64,000 nucleotides of DNA, from the NCBI RefSeq assembly GCF_036013745.1, contig NZ_CP107880.1:2542001-2606000 (forward strand), in the 5' to 3' direction. Of the stretch, positions 7,501 through 20,659 are shown one piece after another. Below the pieces are notes generated by a model. The model made no database searches. It was given only the letters and a program-made list of their open reading frames with translations, and was not told the DNA's origin. The position numbers were made by a program, and so were the translations under genes. This DNA comes from Streptomyces sp. NBC_00483. GTDB lineage: Bacteria > Actinomycetota > Actinomycetes > Streptomycetales > Streptomycetaceae. Positions within the stretch are counted from its first letter, which is position 1. Each line of letters opens with the position of its first letter.

Positions 7501-8267
7501 CCGGCGTACATGTCGAAGAGGCGGGAACCGAAGGTCCGCTGCTGCTGTGCCTGCACGGCATCGGCTCCTCGTCGGCCGCGTTCGCGCCGCAGCTCGAAGG
7601 GCTCGCCCCGCACGCCCGGGTCATCGCCTGGGACGCGCCCGGATACGCCAAGTCCCCTGATTCGGACGGCCCGTTGGACCTCGACGGATTCGCGGACGCC
7701 GCGGCGGAGCTGATCCGCTCGTACGGCCCGTCGGCACACGTCCTCGGTGTCTCGTGGGGCGGTGTCATCGCGCTGCGGCTCGCGACCCGTCACCCCGACC
7801 TCGTCGACTCGCTGATCGTCGCCGACTCCAGCGCGGGCTCCGGCACCGACGAGGCGAAGGCGGCCGGGATGCGGGCGCGCTCCGCGGAGTTGGCGGAGGC
7901 CGGGCCGCGCGCGTTCGCCGAGAAGCGCGGGCCGCGCCTCGTCTCGGACCTCGCGCCCACCGAACTCGTCGAGCGGGTCGTCGACACCATGGCCTCCTCC
8001 GTGCGACTGCCCGGCTACGGGTACGCCGCCGAGGCCATGGCCGGCGCCGACCTGCGCCCCGAACTGTCCGCCGTCTCCGCGCCCACGCTCGTGATCTGCG
8101 GCGACCGCGACAAGGTCACCGGCGTCGAGGCCTCCCAGGTCATCGCCGGCGGCCTGCACAAGACGGCCTACGTGATCGTCAAGGACGCCGGTCACCTCGC
8201 CAACCAGGAACAGCCCGAGCGGTTCAACGCCTGGGTCCTGTCCCACCTGCACATCGTCACCCGCTGA
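7497..8267 (+). CDS. alpha/beta hydrolase (meta-cleavage product hydrolase-like)
   Basis: A 256-residue alpha/beta-hydrolase with the full triad: nucleophile Ser in GVSWGG, Asp in CGDRDKVTG and His in DAGHLANQEQPE, plus the oxyanion HGIGSS loop near residue 20. The size and its place behind an extradiol dioxygenase fit hydrolysis of a C-C bond in a ring-fission product (BphD/MhpC-like) or of an enol-lactone. GTG at 7497 overlaps the previous gene's stop (GTGA), indicating coupling. The exact substrate is not visible. Confidence 0.87.
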   Translation: MTGVHVEEAGTEGPLLLCLHGIGSSSAAFAPQLEGLAPHARVIAWDAPGYAKSPDSDGPLDLDGFADAAAELIRSYGPSAHVLGVSWGGVIALRLATRHPDLVDSLIVADSSAGSGTDEAKAAGMRARSAELAEAGPRAFAEKRGPRLVSDLAPTELVERVVDTMASSVRLPGYGYAAEAMAGADLRPELSAVSAPTLVICGDRDKVTGVEASQVIAGGLHKTAYVIVKDAGHLANQEQPERFNAWVLSHLHIVTR

Positions 8268-8289
8268 CGCACCTCGAAAGGCTCACACC

Positions 8290-8811
8290 ATGCCTCTGAC
8301 CACCACCGAGTACGACAACGGCGGCGACCTCGGCACGTACACCGACTCGCTGATCGCGTCGAAGGAGTCCCGCGTCGCCGACTTCGACACGCTCTCCTTC
8401 CAGGAGAAGGCGGGCAAGCAGTACCGCCGCGGCCAGATCCGCTACGTCGGCTCCGGCGCCACCGGCAACCACGAGGGCGACAGCCGCATCCTCCCGTCCG
8501 GCGGCTTCACCTTCTCCAACATGCTCCTTCCGCCCGGCGCCGAGGGCCCGGCCCACACGCACCACGACGTGGAGGAGGCCTTCTTCGTCCTGGAGGGCGA
8601 GGTACGCGTCGGCGTCCACCGCGGCCCGGACGAGGTCGAGTACCGCACCCTCGGCTACCGCGACATGATCGTGGTGCCCGCCGGTGTGACCCGCTCGCTG
8701 AAGAACGAGGGCGACACCGACGCCCTGTTCTGCGTGGTCATCGGCACCCAGAAGCCGCAGGTGCCCTCGTACCCCGAGTACTCGCCGATGCACGGCGTCA
8801 CCCGTGACTGA
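8290..8811 (+). CDS. cupin-domain protein
   Basis: The 173-residue protein contains one cupin barrel. The metal-binding motif HTHHDVEEAFFVLEGEV (about residues 94-110) provides three His and a Glu; the second motif is PAGVTRSLKN. Single-domain cupins in catabolic operons act as dioxygenases, isomerases or small-molecule binding proteins, and the sequence does not decide between these. It starts 22 bases after the hydrolase gene (AAAGG upstream of ATG) and overlaps the following SDR gene by 8 bases. Confidence 0.85.
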   Translation: MPLTTTEYDNGGDLGTYTDSLIASKESRVADFDTLSFQEKAGKQYRRGQIRYVGSGATGNHEGDSRILPSGGFTFSNMLLPPGAEGPAHTHHDVEEAFFVLEGEVRVGVHRGPDEVEYRTLGYRDMIVVPAGVTRSLKNEGDTDALFCVVIGTQKPQVPSYPEYSPMHGVTRD

Positions 8812-9553
8812 CTCGCGTGACGCGCGCACGGTCGTCGTGACCGGGGCGGGCCGTGGTCTGGGACTGGCCATGGCCCGCCGGGCCGGCGCGGACGGCTTCC
8901 GGGTCGTCCTCGCCGAGCTCGACCCGGAGCGCGGCGCCCGCGCGGCCGAGGAGCTGCGGAGCGAGGGGCACGACGCGCACTTCGCACGCTGCGACGTGGC
9001 GGACCCGGCGTCCGTCGAGGAACTCGCCTCGTTCGTACGGGACTTGGGCGGGCTCTACGGGCTCGTCAACAACGCCGCCCTCGCCAACGGCGTCGGCGGC
9101 AAGGAGTTCCAGGACATCGACATCGAGGCCTGGGACCGCCTGATGACGGTGAACGCGCGCGGCCCCTGGCTGGTGTCCAAGGCGCTGCACCCGCTGTTCG
9201 GCCCGACCGGACGCATCGTCAACATCGCCTCGGACGCCGCCCTTTACGGTTCGCCCCGGCTCGCGCACTACATCACGTCGAAGGGCGCGGTCATCGCCCT
9301 CACCCGCGCGATGGCCCGGGAGCTCGGCGAGCGCGGCATCACCGTGAACGCGCTGGCGCCGGGCCTCACCGAATGCGAGGCGACCGAGACGGTCCCGGAG
9401 GAGCGGCACGGTCTCTACGCCGCGAACCGGGCGATCTCCCGGCCGCAGCAGCCCGACGACCTGACCGGGTTCGCGTCCTTCCTCCTCTCCGAGGAGTCCC
9501 GCTATCTGACCGGACAGGTGATCGCCGTCAACGGCGGATTCACCATGAACTGA
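8804..9553 (+). CDS. short-chain dehydrogenase/reductase with intact active site
   Basis: A classical 249-residue SDR: cofactor motif TGAGRGLG near the N terminus, the NNAALAN segment, Ser in NIASDAA, and catalytic Tyr156 and Lys160 in YITSK. The C terminus VIAVNGGFTMN is typical. In a ring-hydroxylation operon it is a good candidate for the cis-dihydrodiol dehydrogenase that rearomatises the Rieske product, or for a secondary-alcohol dehydrogenase. The GTG start lies 8 bases inside the cupin gene. Confidence 0.88.
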   Translation: MTDSRDARTVVVTGAGRGLGLAMARRAGADGFRVVLAELDPERGARAAEELRSEGHDAHFARCDVADPASVEELASFVRDLGGLYGLVNNAALANGVGGKEFQDIDIEAWDRLMTVNARGPWLVSKALHPLFGPTGRIVNIASDAALYGSPRLAHYITSKGAVIALTRAMARELGERGITVNALAPGLTECEATETVPEERHGLYAANRAISRPQQPDDLTGFASFLLSEESRYLTGQVIAVNGGFTMN

Positions 9554-15657: not shown

Positions 15658-16623
15658 GTGATCGAGCTCGAGGGGGTTCCCGAGCTGGTCGACCCGGTCA
15701 TGGTGGCCGCGTTCGAGGGCTGGAACGATGCCGGCGACGCCGCCTCCACCGCGGTCGCGCATCTCGACAAGGAGTGGAAGGGCGAGGTGTTCGCGGCGCT
15801 GGACGCCGAGGACTACTACGACTTCCAGGTCAACCGCCCGACCGTGTTCGTCGACGCCGGCGTGCGAAAGATCACATGGCCGACGACGCGGCTCTCGGTG
15901 ATCCGTATCGGCGGGGACAAGCCGCGCGACCTGGTTTTGGTCCGGGGCATCGAGCCGTCCATGCGCTGGCGCTCGTTCTGCAACGAGCTGCTCGGCTTCG
16001 CGCACGAGCTGGGCGTCGAACTCGTCGTCGTCCTCGGCGCGCTGCTCGGCGACACCCCGCACACCAGGCCCGTTCCGGTCAGCGGTGTCACGTCGGACGC
16101 GGACCTGGCCTCGCGGATGAACCTGGAGGAGACCAAGTACGAGGGTCCGACGGGCATCGTCGGCATCCTCCAGGAGGCCTGCACGCACGCGGGCGTTCCC
16201 GCGGTCTCGCTGTGGGCGGCCGTTCCGCACTACGTGTCGCAGCCGCCGAACCCGAAGGCGACGCTGGCCCTCCTGAACCGTCTGGAGGACCTGATCGACC
16301 TGCGCATCCCGCTGGGCGACCTGGCCGAGGACGCGCGGGCCTGGCAGTTGGGCGTGGACCAGCTGGCGGCCGAGGACAGCGAGGTCGCCGAGTACGTGCA
16401 GTCCCTTGAGGAGGCCCGCGACACCGCGGAGCTGCCCGAGGCCTCCGGCGAGGCCATCGCCCGCGAGTTCGAGCGCTACTTGCAGCGCCGCGATCCGGAC
16501 GCCGGTCCTGGCGGTCACGCGACGGACGGCGGCGACGGCTCCTCGCACCTGCGCGACAACCCGAGCGGCCGGACCAGGCCGCCGAAGCCGCCGCGCCCGG
16601 AGGGCGACGACGGCGACGAGTAG
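15658..16623 (+). CDS. PAC2-family protein
   Basis: The 321-residue protein belongs to the PAC2 family, named after a eukaryotic proteasome assembly chaperone. Landmarks are AAFEGWNDAGDAAS at the N terminus, VRGIEPSMRW, and VVVLGALLGDTPHTRPV; the last 60 residues are a charged, Pro/Gly-rich tail that looks disordered. Its function in actinobacteria is not established; a chaperone-like role is only suggested by the family. GTG at 15658 follows GGAAGGAGG. From memory it neighbours mshC in other Streptomyces, whereas here two extra genes separate them. A strong hairpin follows at 16642. Confidence 0.88.
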   Translation: MIELEGVPELVDPVMVAAFEGWNDAGDAASTAVAHLDKEWKGEVFAALDAEDYYDFQVNRPTVFVDAGVRKITWPTTRLSVIRIGGDKPRDLVLVRGIEPSMRWRSFCNELLGFAHELGVELVVVLGALLGDTPHTRPVPVSGVTSDADLASRMNLEETKYEGPTGIVGILQEACTHAGVPAVSLWAAVPHYVSQPPNPKATLALLNRLEDLIDLRIPLGDLAEDARAWQLGVDQLAAEDSEVAEYVQSLEEARDTAELPEASGEAIAREFERYLQRRDPDAGPGGHATDGGDGSSHLRDNPSGRTRPPKPPRPEGDDGDE

Positions 16624-16921: not shown

Positions 16922-18664
16922 ATGACCGACCAGCACGCAAGCCCGGCGCAGGGGCCGGGAGCGGCCGGGCCGGGGCCGGAGGGATCCGGTTTCACCTATC
17001 GCGGGGCGGAAGAGGAACTGATCGTTGTGGCGCGCCCGGAGGCCCGCCTGCGCGTTCAGACCGACGGTGTGCGCTCCGCGGCGGGCGCCGACGTATCGGC
17101 GCTGAACATGTTCCTCGGAGACGAACAACTCGCTCTTGAACCGCTGTTCGGCAGCGAGGAGCGGGTACAGGAAGTCGGCGAGGCACCCGCGGCCGACGTA
17201 CCGGACCTGGCGCTGTTCTACCGGGTGCGCGGCGGGGCCGAGCGGGCGCAGGAGCTGCGGTCGCGGATCGCGGCGCTCCCGGAGATCGACACGGCGTACG
17301 TGAAGCCCGGCGCGGTGCCGGCGGCGCGCGCGTCGTCCCCGGAGAACTTCGACGAGGCGCGGCGGCAGAAGGAGAAGACGGCCGCGACGCCCGACTACAC
17401 GGGCCGCCAGGGCTACTTGGGCCCCGCGCCCGCCGGCATCGACGCGCAGTGGGCGTGGCGGCGGCTCGGCGGCAGCGGCGAGGGCGTCACCGTCATCGAT
17501 GTCGAGGGCGCCTGGCAGTTGGGGCACGAGGACCTGTCGGCGAAGCTCGCCGGCATCGTGGTCGGCACGCCGATCTCGGACGTGGCCTGGCGCAATCACG
17601 GCACCGCGGTCCTCGGCGTGATCGGCGGCGACCGCAACGATCGCGGCATCACCGGCATCGTGCCGGAGGCCGTGACGGCGGCCGCGTCCTTCCAGGGCGT
17701 GGGCACGGCGGCGGCGATCCACGCGGCGGCCGACCGGCTGAGCCCCGGCGACGTCATCCTCATCGAACTGCACCGCCCGGGGCCGCGGTTCGACTTCGAA
17801 CCGCGAGACGACCAGCGCGGCTACATCGCCCTGGAGTGGTGGCCCGACGACTTCGCGGCCATCAAGTACGCGACGGCGAAGGGCATCGTGGTCGTGGGCG
17901 CGGCGGGCAACGGGTCCGAGTCCCTCGACGACGCCGTGTACGAGCGGCGGCCCGACGAGTTCCCGACGTGGTGGCACAACCCGTTCAACCCGTCGAACCG
18001 CTCCTCGGACGCGGTCCTCGTCGGCGCGGGCGCCCCGCCACCCGGCACCCACGGCCGCGACCACGGCCCGGACCGCTCGCGCCTCTCGTTCTCCAACTAC
18101 GGCGCCCGCGTGGACGCCCAGGGCTGGGGCCGCGAGGTCACCACCACCGGTGGCTCCTGGAACAAGCCCGGCGATCTTCAGGGCGGCACCGAGGAGATCG
18201 CCTGGTACACCGACACCTTCTCAGGCACCTCGTCCGCCTCCCCGGTGGTCGTCGGCGCGCTGACCGCCCTCCAAGGAATGCTCAAGGCAGGCGGTCAGCG
18301 CCCGATGATCTCGCAGCGGGCGCGCGAGGTACTCCGGGCGACCGGCTCACCACAGCAGGACGCCCCCGGCCGGCCCGCTTCGCAGCGGATCGGCAACCGG
18401 CCCGACATCAAGGGAGCGGTCACCAACCTGCTTCCCTCGACGGTCGGTTCGGGCCAGGCCGAGCGGTACTGGGACGAGCTGATCCCGTATCCGCCCGAAC
18501 TCCCGCCCCGGCTACGCCTGTTCGTGGCGGGCTCCTGGCGCAATCTGAACAATCCGTCCCCCGAGACCCGCCAGGCGGTGCACACCGCCTTCGCAGGGGG
18601 ACGGCCCGACGTACGTGTGTGGTTCTCGGACGACGAGGTCGTCGGCCTGGTCGTCACGGGCTGA
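16922..18664 (+). CDS. subtilisin-like serine protease (S8) with an extra C-terminal domain
   Basis: The 580-residue protein has a hydrophilic N-terminal region (residues 1-165) without signal peptide or membrane segment, then an S8 catalytic domain with Asp193 (VIDVEGAW), His226 (NHGTAVLG) and Ser437 (GTSSASP), and the oxyanion Asn in AAGNGS. After about residue 520 comes a small domain ending LFVAGSWRNLNNPSPETR and a hydrophobic beta-like end. Secreted subtilases normally start with a signal and prodomain, so this looks intracellular. The next gene, 40 bases downstream, encodes a Gln-rich protein whose C terminus resembles this small domain, suggesting protease and partner or substrate. ATG at 16922 was chosen, with GAGGGGAG upstream. 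Confidence 0.88.
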   Translation: MTDQHASPAQGPGAAGPGPEGSGFTYRGAEEELIVVARPEARLRVQTDGVRSAAGADVSALNMFLGDEQLALEPLFGSEERVQEVGEAPAADVPDLALFYRVRGGAERAQELRSRIAALPEIDTAYVKPGAVPAARASSPENFDEARRQKEKTAATPDYTGRQGYLGPAPAGIDAQWAWRRLGGSGEGVTVIDVEGAWQLGHEDLSAKLAGIVVGTPISDVAWRNHGTAVLGVIGGDRNDRGITGIVPEAVTAAASFQGVGTAAAIHAAADRLSPGDVILIELHRPGPRFDFEPRDDQRGYIALEWWPDDFAAIKYATAKGIVVVGAAGNGSESLDDAVYERRPDEFPTWWHNPFNPSNRSSDAVLVGAGAPPPGTHGRDHGPDRSRLSFSNYGARVDAQGWGREVTTTGGSWNKPGDLQGGTEEIAWYTDTFSGTSSASPVVVGALTALQGMLKAGGQRPMISQRAREVLRATGSPQQDAPGRPASQRIGNRPDIKGAVTNLLPSTVGSGQAERYWDELIPYPPELPPRLRLFVAGSWRNLNNPSPETRQAVHTAFAGGRPDVRVWFSDDEVVGLVVTG

Positions 18665-18704
18665 GAGGCAACGCAACCAACCATTGATGGAAGGTGGCAC
18701 CCGC

Positions 18705-19349
18705 ATGAGCATCACCCCCCAAATGGGCCAGCAGGGTCAGCAGTTCCCGAGCACCTCGCCCTACCAGCAGCAACAGCACGGCATGGGCCAGCAGTCGTAC
18801 GGTCAGCAGCAGCCGGGCATGAGCGGTCAGGGCCAGGGTGGTCAGGGCCAGGAGCAGCTCGTCCAGCAGCTCCAGCAGCAGCTCCAGCAGCTCGGCCAGC
18901 AGCAGCCGTACCAGCAACTGCTCCAGCAGCTCGGCGGGCAGCAGCAACAGCAGCCCTTCGGCCAGCAGATGCAGCAGGGCCAGCAGCAGTACGGGCAACA
19001 GCAGTACGGTCAGCAGCAGGACCAGCAGGCACAGCAGATCGAGCAGCAGGTGCAACAGCATCTGCAGCAGGTCCAGCAGGCCGCGCACCAGCAGGCCCAG
19101 CAGCAGATCGAGCAGCAGGCACTCGCCTCCGGCGTGGCGAACGGCTACATCGACATCGTGCAGCCGCTCCCGGGTCAGCCGCGGCAGATCTTCCTGCGCA
19201 TCAACAACCAGTTCCGGGTCCTCAACAACCCGACCCCGCAGGCCCACGACGAGGTCCAGGAGGCCTTCGCGTTCGGCCACCAGGTCGTCGGCATCTGGGA
19301 CACGGGCACGCCGCTCGTCCTGCGCAGCGTGCGCGTCCAGCGCATCTGA
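18705..19349 (+). CDS. extremely glutamine-rich protein sharing a C-terminal domain with the adjacent protease
   Basis: The 214-residue protein has two parts. Residues about 6-140 are low-complexity, dominated by Gln with Gly, Tyr, Leu and Ser (repeats such as QQYGQQQ and heptad-like LQQQLQQL), resembling prion-like or coiled-coil sequences. Residues about 150-214 form an ordered-looking domain containing RVLNNPTPQAHDEVQEAF, which aligns with WRNLNNPSPETRQAVHTAF at the end of the upstream S8 protease. No signal peptide is visible. The CAG-rich DNA is unusual for this genome. ATG at 18705 follows GGAAGG; function is unknown, and a substrate, regulator or scaffold of the protease is plausible. 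Confidence 0.8.
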   Translation: MSITPQMGQQGQQFPSTSPYQQQQHGMGQQSYGQQQPGMSGQGQGGQGQEQLVQQLQQQLQQLGQQQPYQQLLQQLGGQQQQQPFGQQMQQGQQQYGQQQYGQQQDQQAQQIEQQVQQHLQQVQQAAHQQAQQQIEQQALASGVANGYIDIVQPLPGQPRQIFLRINNQFRVLNNPTPQAHDEVQEAFAFGHQVVGIWDTGTPLVLRSVRVQRI

Positions 19350-19429: not shown

Positions 19430-20659
19430 CTACAGCGCCACGCCCAGCAGGGCGTCCACGGCACGCGATACGACGCCGGGGGCGCCCTCGTCCGTGCCAC
19501 CACCGGCCGCCTGGGCCTCGGCCCAGCGGTCGACGGCGATCAGCGCGGTGGGTGCGTCCAGGTCGTCGGCGAGCGCCTCGCGGATCTCCTCGACGAGCGC
19601 CTCGGCGGACGGGCCGTCGGGGCGGGAGACGGCGGCGCGCCAGCGGTCGAGACGGGCCACCGCGTCGGCGAGCACCTGGTCCGTCCACTCCCAGTCGGAG
19701 CGGTAGTGGTGGTCGAGGAGCGCGAGCCGGATGGCGGCGGGGTCGACACCCTCGCGGCGCAGCGCGGAGACGAACACCAGGTTGCCCTTGGACTTGGACA
19801 TCTTCTCGCCGTCGAGCGCGACCATGCCGGCGTGCACGTACGCCTTGGCCATCGGGAACTCGCCGGTGAGCGCCTGGGCGTGCGAGGCACCCATCTCGTG
19901 GTGCGGGAAGGCCAGGTCGGAGCCGCCGCCCTGGACGTCGAAGCCCATGCCAAGGTGGTCGAGGGCGATGGCGACACACTCGATGTGCCAGCCGGGGCGC
20001 CCCTGGCCGAGCGAGCCGCCGTCCCAGCTGGGCTCGCCCTCGCGGGCGGCCATCCACAGCATCGGGTCGAGCGGGTTCTTCTTGCCCGGACGGTCCGGGT
20101 CGCCCCCGCGCTCGGCGGAGAGCAGCCGCATCGCTGCGGCGTCGAGGTTCGAGACGGACCCGAAGTGCGGGTCGGCGTCCACGGAGAAGTAGGTGTCGCC
20201 CTCGAGCTCGTAGGCGGCACCGGAGTCACGCAGTCGTTCGACGAGCGGCACGATGCCGGGTATCGCCTCGACGGCGCCTATGTAGTGCTGCGGCGGCAGC
20301 ATCCGCAGGGCGGTCATGTCCTCACGGAAGAGGGCGGTCTCGCGCTCGGCGAGGCCGTCCCACTCGATGCCGTCACGCACGGCCCGCTCCAGCAGAGGAT
20401 CGTCGACGTCCGTCACGTTCTGGACGTAGTGAACCTGCCGCTTGGTGTCGAGCCACACGCGCTGCACGAGGTCGAACGCGTTGTAGGTCGCCGCGTGACC
20501 CATGTGGGTCGCGTCGTACGGCGTGATGCCGCAGACGTAGATACGGGCGACGGGACCGGGGTCAAGGGTGACGAGCCCACCGGTCGCGGTGTCGTGGATC
20601 CGGAGGTCGCGGCCCTTGCCGGGCAGGGCGGGGACCTCAGAAGCGGGCCAGGCATGCAT
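19430..20659 (-). CDS. mshC: cysteine:GlcN-Ins ligase MshC (mycothiol biosynthesis)
   Basis: MshC joins L-cysteine to 1-D-myo-inosityl-2-amino-2-deoxy-glucopyranoside with ATP, the third step of mycothiol synthesis. It is a 409-residue relative of cysteinyl-tRNA synthetase, with the Zn ligand Cys43 ([14 protein letters not shown]), the HIGH-type motif HMGH at 52-55 and KMSKSKGN near residue 285; no tRNA anticodon domain follows. The start at 20659 begins [16 protein letters not shown] as in other actinomycetes; the longer open frame to 20740 has no family support. It is the last gene of a minus-strand group with the SCO1664-type, DUF3090 and phosphomutase genes. Confidence 0.96.

Follow-up and report, generated by a model that had tools for sequence, protein, structure and literature searches.

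A Streptomyces subtilase and the product of the next gene share a C-terminal domain and form a candidate docking pair

In AB5 toxins, the gene for the enzyme is followed by the gene for a small OB-fold protein. In nucleoside triphosphate (NTP)-dependent conflict systems with effector-associated domains (EADs), an effector and its neighbor carry a common small domain (PMC7159879). As in the locus described here, a subtilase is reported to be accompanied by a separately encoded small protein in the cases of Bacillus IPI/Isp1 (PMC3901451) and of the Plasmodium SUB1 propeptide-like protein (PMC6993865). We analyzed a window, meaning a whole stretch of 64,000 nucleotides (nt) of Streptomyces sp. 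NBC_00483 (contig NZ_CP107880.1, positions 2,542,001 to 2,606,000), in which the gene of an S8 subtilase is followed by that of a Gln-rich protein ending in the same domain as the protease. No published account of this subtilase layout was found in a literature search restricted to open-licence papers. Our favored but tentative interpretation, to which we give nearly an even chance, is that the two proteins form a dedicated module, in which a cytosolic subtilase is held and positioned by a docking partner and the Gln-rich part is a self-assembly add-on of Streptomyces. The features of the pair are the following.

16922..18664 (ATG to stop), + strand: S8 subtilase of 580 amino acids (aa), with N-terminal propeptide-like, catalytic and C-terminal shared domains
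16994..17320 (borders approximate), + strand: N-terminal propeptide-like domain of the protease, placed by a profile of free-standing upstream copies and by alignment
17498..17500, + strand: codon of catalytic Asp193, by alignment
17597..17599, + strand: codon of catalytic His226, by alignment
17909..17911, + strand: codon of oxyanion-hole Asn330, by alignment
18230..18232, + strand: codon of catalytic Ser437, by alignment
18428..18661, + strand: C-terminal shared (LNNP) domain of the protease, residues about 503-580, by sequence and profile comparison
18705..19349 (ATG to stop), + strand: partner gene, 214 aa, with Gln-rich N-terminal part and shared C-terminal domain
18705..19124, + strand: Gln-rich N-terminal part of the partner, about half Gln, by sequence
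19125..19346, + strand: shared domain of the partner, by profile comparison; OB fold in the AlphaFold model, predicted local distance difference test (pLDDT) 94.6

The original prediction held that a signal-less protease and the Gln-rich protein encoded after it end in the same domain. The common end was borne out, and the lack of a signal held in a crude scan. When the window protease was searched against its own genome with phmmer, the search returned the protease itself, one paralogue and the C terminus of the Gln-rich protein, the last over residues 506-570 with 34% identity (E 7.4e-4). A common domain of about 75 aa was confirmed when a profile of 25 protease tails was compared with one of 20 partner domains (probability 97.6%, E 4e-12). 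The N terminus of the window protease was not hydrophobic in a crude hydrophobicity scan, which flagged 2 of 116 sequences (L078 and L079). The match to PF00082 (41.9 bits, cut-off 21.8) places the protein among the S8 subtilases, and the alignment shows all four active-site residues of a subtilase (Asp, His, Asn and Ser), which are intact in 114 of the 116 aligned family sequences. Both genes lie on the + strand, with 40 nt between the protease stop and the partner ATG. The partner opens with the Gln-rich stretch, measures 159-228 aa in total across 22 genomes and hit no family in a Pfam search up to E 1. Finally, conservation is higher in the protease tail (mean distance 0.131) than in the remaining protease (0.167); the corresponding value for the partner domain is 0.417.

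We then analyzed 392 Streptomyces genomes with a model of the LNNP domain. It matched in 66 genomes at E ≤ 0.01, strongly in 64, and 58 of these 64 held exactly two strong copies, adjacent, on one strand and 533-863 nt apart. The terminal domain common to the two co-directional genes is nearly confined to this pair in Streptomyces. Nor is it widespread among unrelated proteins, and the two genes do not belong to the core of the genus, strong matches being present in 64 of the 392 genomes. The remaining six genomes carried one copy (G011, G018, G108, G593 and G681) or three (G723). In G723, the third copy is the tail of a second, diverged protease at another locus, outside the interval between the PAC2-family gene and mshC that flank the window pair (L244 6441-8728, − strand), and this protease has its own Gln-rich partner 35 nt downstream; the C terminus of that partner was missed in the genome search and matches the domain model (E 5e-5 for 400 sequences). 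Among the single-copy genomes, the protease of G018 has an Asp-to-Ala change in its active site, that of G681 has an altered C terminus with intact active-site residues, and the PAC2-mshC interval of G593 holds just an 85-aa open reading frame (ORF; L242 6341-6598, + strand), a relic of the protease tail.

A search for the protease itself in 150 Streptomyces genomes, including its own, gave matches in 47 at E ≤ 0.01 and orthologues (E below 1e-200) in 24; 23 of the 24 orthologues lie inside the PAC2-mshC interval, and 21 adjoin a Gln-rich gene. The partner at L053 (G086) was missed by phmmer and found by BLAST and the domain model, and phmmer returned no partner match in the locus of the LNNP-tailed protease of S. 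poonensis (L164). A weak match of the window protease at G123:C11 was rejected, as it lies in a long ORF of another kind that the domain model did not return. Two diverged protease copies (L056 6845-8632, + strand; L243 5791-7581, − strand) share another locus beside a gene that reads as TerB-like; one has Ala in place of the catalytic Asp, the other has an altered C terminus, and both are partnerless.

The paralogue in the window genome is 54% identical to the window protease over residues 10-503 and has a different tail, and the next gene encodes this other tail in free form, as a protein of 84 aa. A protein 100% identical to the paralogue is found in Streptomyces sp. NBC_01016 (L085 6001-7945). 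A contig scan gave 249 relatives; the 80 best of them form the family set, which favors relatives of the paralogue, as this was the query. Bacterial relatives came from Actinomycetota, Pseudomonadota, Cyanobacteriota, Chloroflexota, Acidobacteriota, Bacteroidota, Planctomycetota, Nitrospira, Armatimonadota, Myxococcales and Paenibacillus, and archaeal ones from methanogenic archaea. Haloferax mediterranei also has the pair, on plasmid pHME505 (WP_014732744 and WP_004061042). Sorted by eye, the tails of the 80 loci were WHW (33), THAK (8), the Lys/Glu-rich KE (14) and others (25), the last including none, FG-GAP, crystallin, BTRD1, DUF6623 and one LNNP (L164). A downstream homologue of the tail was present at 20 of 33 WHW, 6 of 8 THAK, 1 of 14 KE and none of the 25 other loci. 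Taking the WHW, THAK and LNNP tails together, 47 of 67 had a homologue elsewhere in their own locus (E < 1e-3; one protein, in L004 and L085, is included twice), nearly always in the next gene. As a chance control, the tails were searched against foreign loci cleared of proteases and known partners, and 1 of 335 such searches gave a match.

The protease tail is swappable. Profile comparison found no similarity of WHW to either LNNP or THAK, and that of LNNP with THAK was not significant (probability 3.9%, E 0.011; strand order alike by eye). The layout of the original prediction stands as far as the pair is concerned, but it requires neither Streptomyces nor a Gln-rich partner nor the LNNP domain: it recurs with two other tail types across phyla. 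In the 30 WHW genomes, every copy found was either a protease tail or the gene next to it; 17 genomes had both and 13 the tail only. The 8 THAK genomes held six pairs and two singles. Furthermore, in the WHW tree the 33 tails and 20 partners separate by role, with one change, in 88% of 200 bootstrap trees. The partner genes that we looked up belonged to no Pfam family and, where named by the source, were nearly always "hypothetical protein". No conserved third gene common to the tail types was recognized, most large clusters being ORFs that overlap the protease in other frames.

The KE loci have common downstream genes in 13 of 14 cases (L120, L127, L131, L133, L134, L137, L145, L147, L148, L150, L154, L156 and L159). 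One of them encodes an ATP-grasp enzyme that comes close to the peptide maturases MvdC and MvdD (E 1e-26 to 1e-42, under the curated cut-offs; assignment examined in L145 and L120 only), and the KE tail could be the modified substrate. Branches of ATP-grasp enzymes tied to peptidases, with no precursor known, are reported in PMC8939145. In L120, a 513-aa protein with a weak B-lectin match (7910-9448) has a Lys/Glu-rich C terminus and an HFI..LRPDL motif that match the upstream protease tail. A tail-copy layout also occurs outside subtilases: a 904-aa BNR/sortilin-type protein without a protease domain (L081 7290-10001, − strand) has WHW as its last domain, and the gene after it (L081 7026-7286, − strand) is a free WHW copy. 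A 675-aa ORF ending in WHW was seen in another genome, where a second copy was not found.

The pair of the window is flanked by two genes.

15658..16623, + strand: PAC2-family gene (PF09754, 223 bits; synteny)
19430..20659, − strand: gene that we take to be mshC, from gene call, place and sequence, and synteny

The original prediction has these two genes as neighbors in other Streptomyces, and of 101 genomes searched, the 98 that yielded both had them on the same contig in every case. Their S. coelicolor counterparts are parJ (SCO1662), the PAC2-family gene, and SCO1663, mshC, according to PMC4255298. The protease lies between them in 15 of the 98 genomes, with a gap of 1.9-6.1 kb; in the 83 genomes without it there, the gap is ≤600 nt in 62, 600-2000 nt in 5, 2-6 kb in 12 and >6 kb in 4 (300 nt were subtracted in all gap counts for the unsearched PAC2 end). 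Protease divergence tracks mshC divergence (r 0.80, 22 genomes), and the interval of G022 contains a 37-residue protease remnant. Because of this correlation and of the relics in G593 and G022, vertical descent with many, repeated losses fits the interval data at least as well as a recent insertion. The earlier description of the genes as an insert in conserved synteny is thus correct for the conserved interval, but recent insertion explains it no better than descent and loss. Additionally, the window protease matched 4 of 50,697 phage records (best identity, 35%) and the paralogue 5 of 72,556 plasmid records, so that few matches do not suggest cargo of mobile elements. A large gene, glycosidase-like by reading, lies between the Gln-rich gene and mshC in L034 (2953-5979) and L041 (9578-12592), and a third Streptomyces locus has a similar-sized gene there (L040 2903-5962).

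In the docking module that we favor, the protease would carry, besides its N-terminal propeptide-like domain, a putative docking domain at its C terminus, and the next gene would give a second, separately evolving copy of it. Tail and free copy most likely bind each other, making a defined complex that would set the working place and the oligomeric state of the protease. The N-terminal domain may keep the protease latent, and the Gln-rich extension of the Streptomyces partner probably self-associates, so that the protease would be clustered or brought to a scaffold. While we infer binding, oligomerization, latency and scaffolding, we observe the shared domain, its near-exclusive adjacency, its recurrence with three tails, the role split of WHW, the intact catalytic residues and the lack of an evident signal peptide. 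A docking pair is supported by the exclusivity of the domain, by its return in several tail types, by the long retention of the pair and by the conserved tail. It is also supported by the division of roles between WHW tails and partners, which looks old, by the intact catalytic residues and by the second locus of G723, where the pair is kept as a unit. The principle of domain sharing in EADs (PMC7159879) also backs it. Overall, the layout points to an overlooked mode of control, in which a protease is regulated by way of a second, separately made copy of its tail.

Several observations weigh against this interpretation. Two Streptomyces genomes (G011 and G108) are partnerless yet keep their active-site residues, and so do 13 of 33 WHW loci with respect to the catalytic residues (at least L101, which ends 310 nt past the protease, may hide a partner). 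With the KE and mixed groups, too, mostly partnerless as counted above, the family can evidently do without a tail partner. These intact partnerless members, together with the fast evolution of the partner, speak against an obligatory role, and a domain diverging at a mean distance of 0.417 resembles a target more than a rigid scaffold. The WHW role-split tree is built on 92 columns, and the scaffold role of the Gln-rich part is drawn from its composition.

Another explanation, which we regard as rather unlikely, is that the partner is a trans-acting brake or fold-helper, as propeptide-like proteins are for some subtilases. The N-terminal domain of the protease reads like a subtilase propeptide, and a free copy of it (N*) was found with a profile of such copies in 53 of 80 loci, 47 times directly upstream on the same strand, 4 times directly upstream on the opposite strand and twice elsewhere; N* and the free tail copy (X*) would then both restrain the protease. 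The N* profile matches the protease N-terminal domains (99%, E 3e-18), and the profile made from free upstream copies at other loci also matches the window protease (E 5e-8 for the whole ORF). Single-sequence phmmer recovered N* in 31 of 113 loci, mostly at E 1e-2 to 1e-8. No Pfam propeptide model scored above its cut-off for either the N-terminal domain or N*, the nearest being a Fervidolysin_NPro-like match of one N* (E 0.093). The fullest layout, N*, then the protease (N-S8-X), then X*, was seen with both twins in 17 of 33 WHW and 4 of 8 THAK loci. The N* genes thus help the brake version, and so do the damaged single-copy loci, the protease being damaged or lost in 3 of 5 single-copy Streptomyces genomes (G018, G681 and G593). 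A propeptide-like subtilase inhibitor is also described in malaria parasites (PMC6993865). However, the Streptomyces LNNP loci show only N-S8-X followed by X* with its Gln-rich extension, N* being absent from all 24, and G011, G108 and the 13 WHW loci keep their catalytic residues without a partner. Furthermore, a copy of the tail would be an unusual inhibitor.

It is unlikely that the partner is a substrate that docks through the shared domain and is cut by the protease in its Gln-rich part, which is the protease-substrate version of the original prediction. The fast divergence of the partner beside a conserved protease tail would agree with this, as would the variable length and the disordered-looking composition of the Gln-rich part. 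The WHW and THAK partners, however, are about 73-84 aa long and consist of the bare domain, which weakens this version: nothing evident is left to remove, although the domain itself could be cut.

We consider it quite improbable that the protease tail and its OB-fold partner assemble into a ring of the AB5 type, which would direct the protease by binding a ligand. Here, the nearest solved folds to the AlphaFold model of the shared domain, an OB fold, are AB5-toxin B subunits, with that of the subtilase toxin further down the list, and the gene order, enzyme and then small OB-fold gene, is as in AB5 toxins. The match is at the fold level only. A PDB sequence search with the LNNP, WHW and THAK profiles returned nothing significant, and a viral fold library gave nothing at E ≤ 0.001. 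A broader version, to which we give an equally small chance, combines both free domains into a pan-prokaryotic cytosolic protease system in which non-catalytic subtilase domains are made in trans (N* upstream, X* downstream). Its OB-fold form would be an intracellular AB5-like ring, with the subtilase tail as one subunit and the neighbor's B-subunit-like domains completing it. Such systems, if real, could be the cellular setting in which enzyme-plus-B-subunit toxins originated.

Local duplication with common ancestry and no joint work is the least probable explanation: it would suit the absence of the partner from some genomes and its fast divergence, but without a joint function it is hard to see why the partner has stayed next to the protease in 58 of 64 genomes, in many phyla and with three tail types.

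The candidate docking pair matters because its partner genes, which had no Pfam family where looked up, go with a single protease family in organisms as distant as Streptomyces, cyanobacteria, Bacteroidota and archaea. A physical pairing would provide a testable rule for restraining a potentially self-destructive cytosolic subtilase and would indicate its regulators in many genomes at once. Non-pathogenic Streptomyces and Haloferax mediterranei would then be tractable models, and the interchangeable tails with their matching partners permit tests of specificity.

Compared with known systems, the locus resembles AB5 toxins, and subtilase cytotoxin in particular, in that a subtilase gene precedes a gene for a predicted small OB-fold protein whose nearest solved folds, judged from the model, are B subunits. 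It differs in that neither protein showed a secretion signal (crude scan of the protease; Gln-rich start of the partner), in the lack of a significant sequence match in the PDB and in that the protease tail here carries the domain itself. The C-terminal jelly-roll of Tk-SP subtilisin and the PPC-like domains of collagenases differ in another way, as the domain described here is also free-standing, from the next gene; a Foldseek comparison gave no strong match, with Tk-SP at rank 15 (E 0.67). In the PADLOC library of anti-phage defense proteins, the window protease had one weak match, to a subtilase model (E 6.9e-4, 17.2 bits), and five other proteins submitted matched no model. To our knowledge, neither IPI nor the SUB1 propeptide-like protein is a copy of the C-terminal domain of its protease. 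The upstream N* gene resembles the Plasmodium SUB1 case (PMC6993865).

The sharing of a domain between effector and neighbor is a known principle from EADs, two features of which are not seen here (PMC7159879). As in EADs, which are proposed there to pair homotypically, a small non-enzymatic terminal domain has a second copy in the adjacent gene. According to that source, what EADs link is an effector and a core component (VMAP, iSTAND, GAP1 or Ubl), and they may occur in many proteins per genome. In contrast, the 30 WHW and 8 THAK genomes searched hold only the copies of the protease and its neighbor, with no core-component fusion, and the LNNP copies are confined to the pair in 58 of 64 genomes, with a partner that has no Pfam family. 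Finally, unlike EADs as presented there, adjacent WHW copies are not nearest relatives but group, in the WHW tree, by role rather than by locus.
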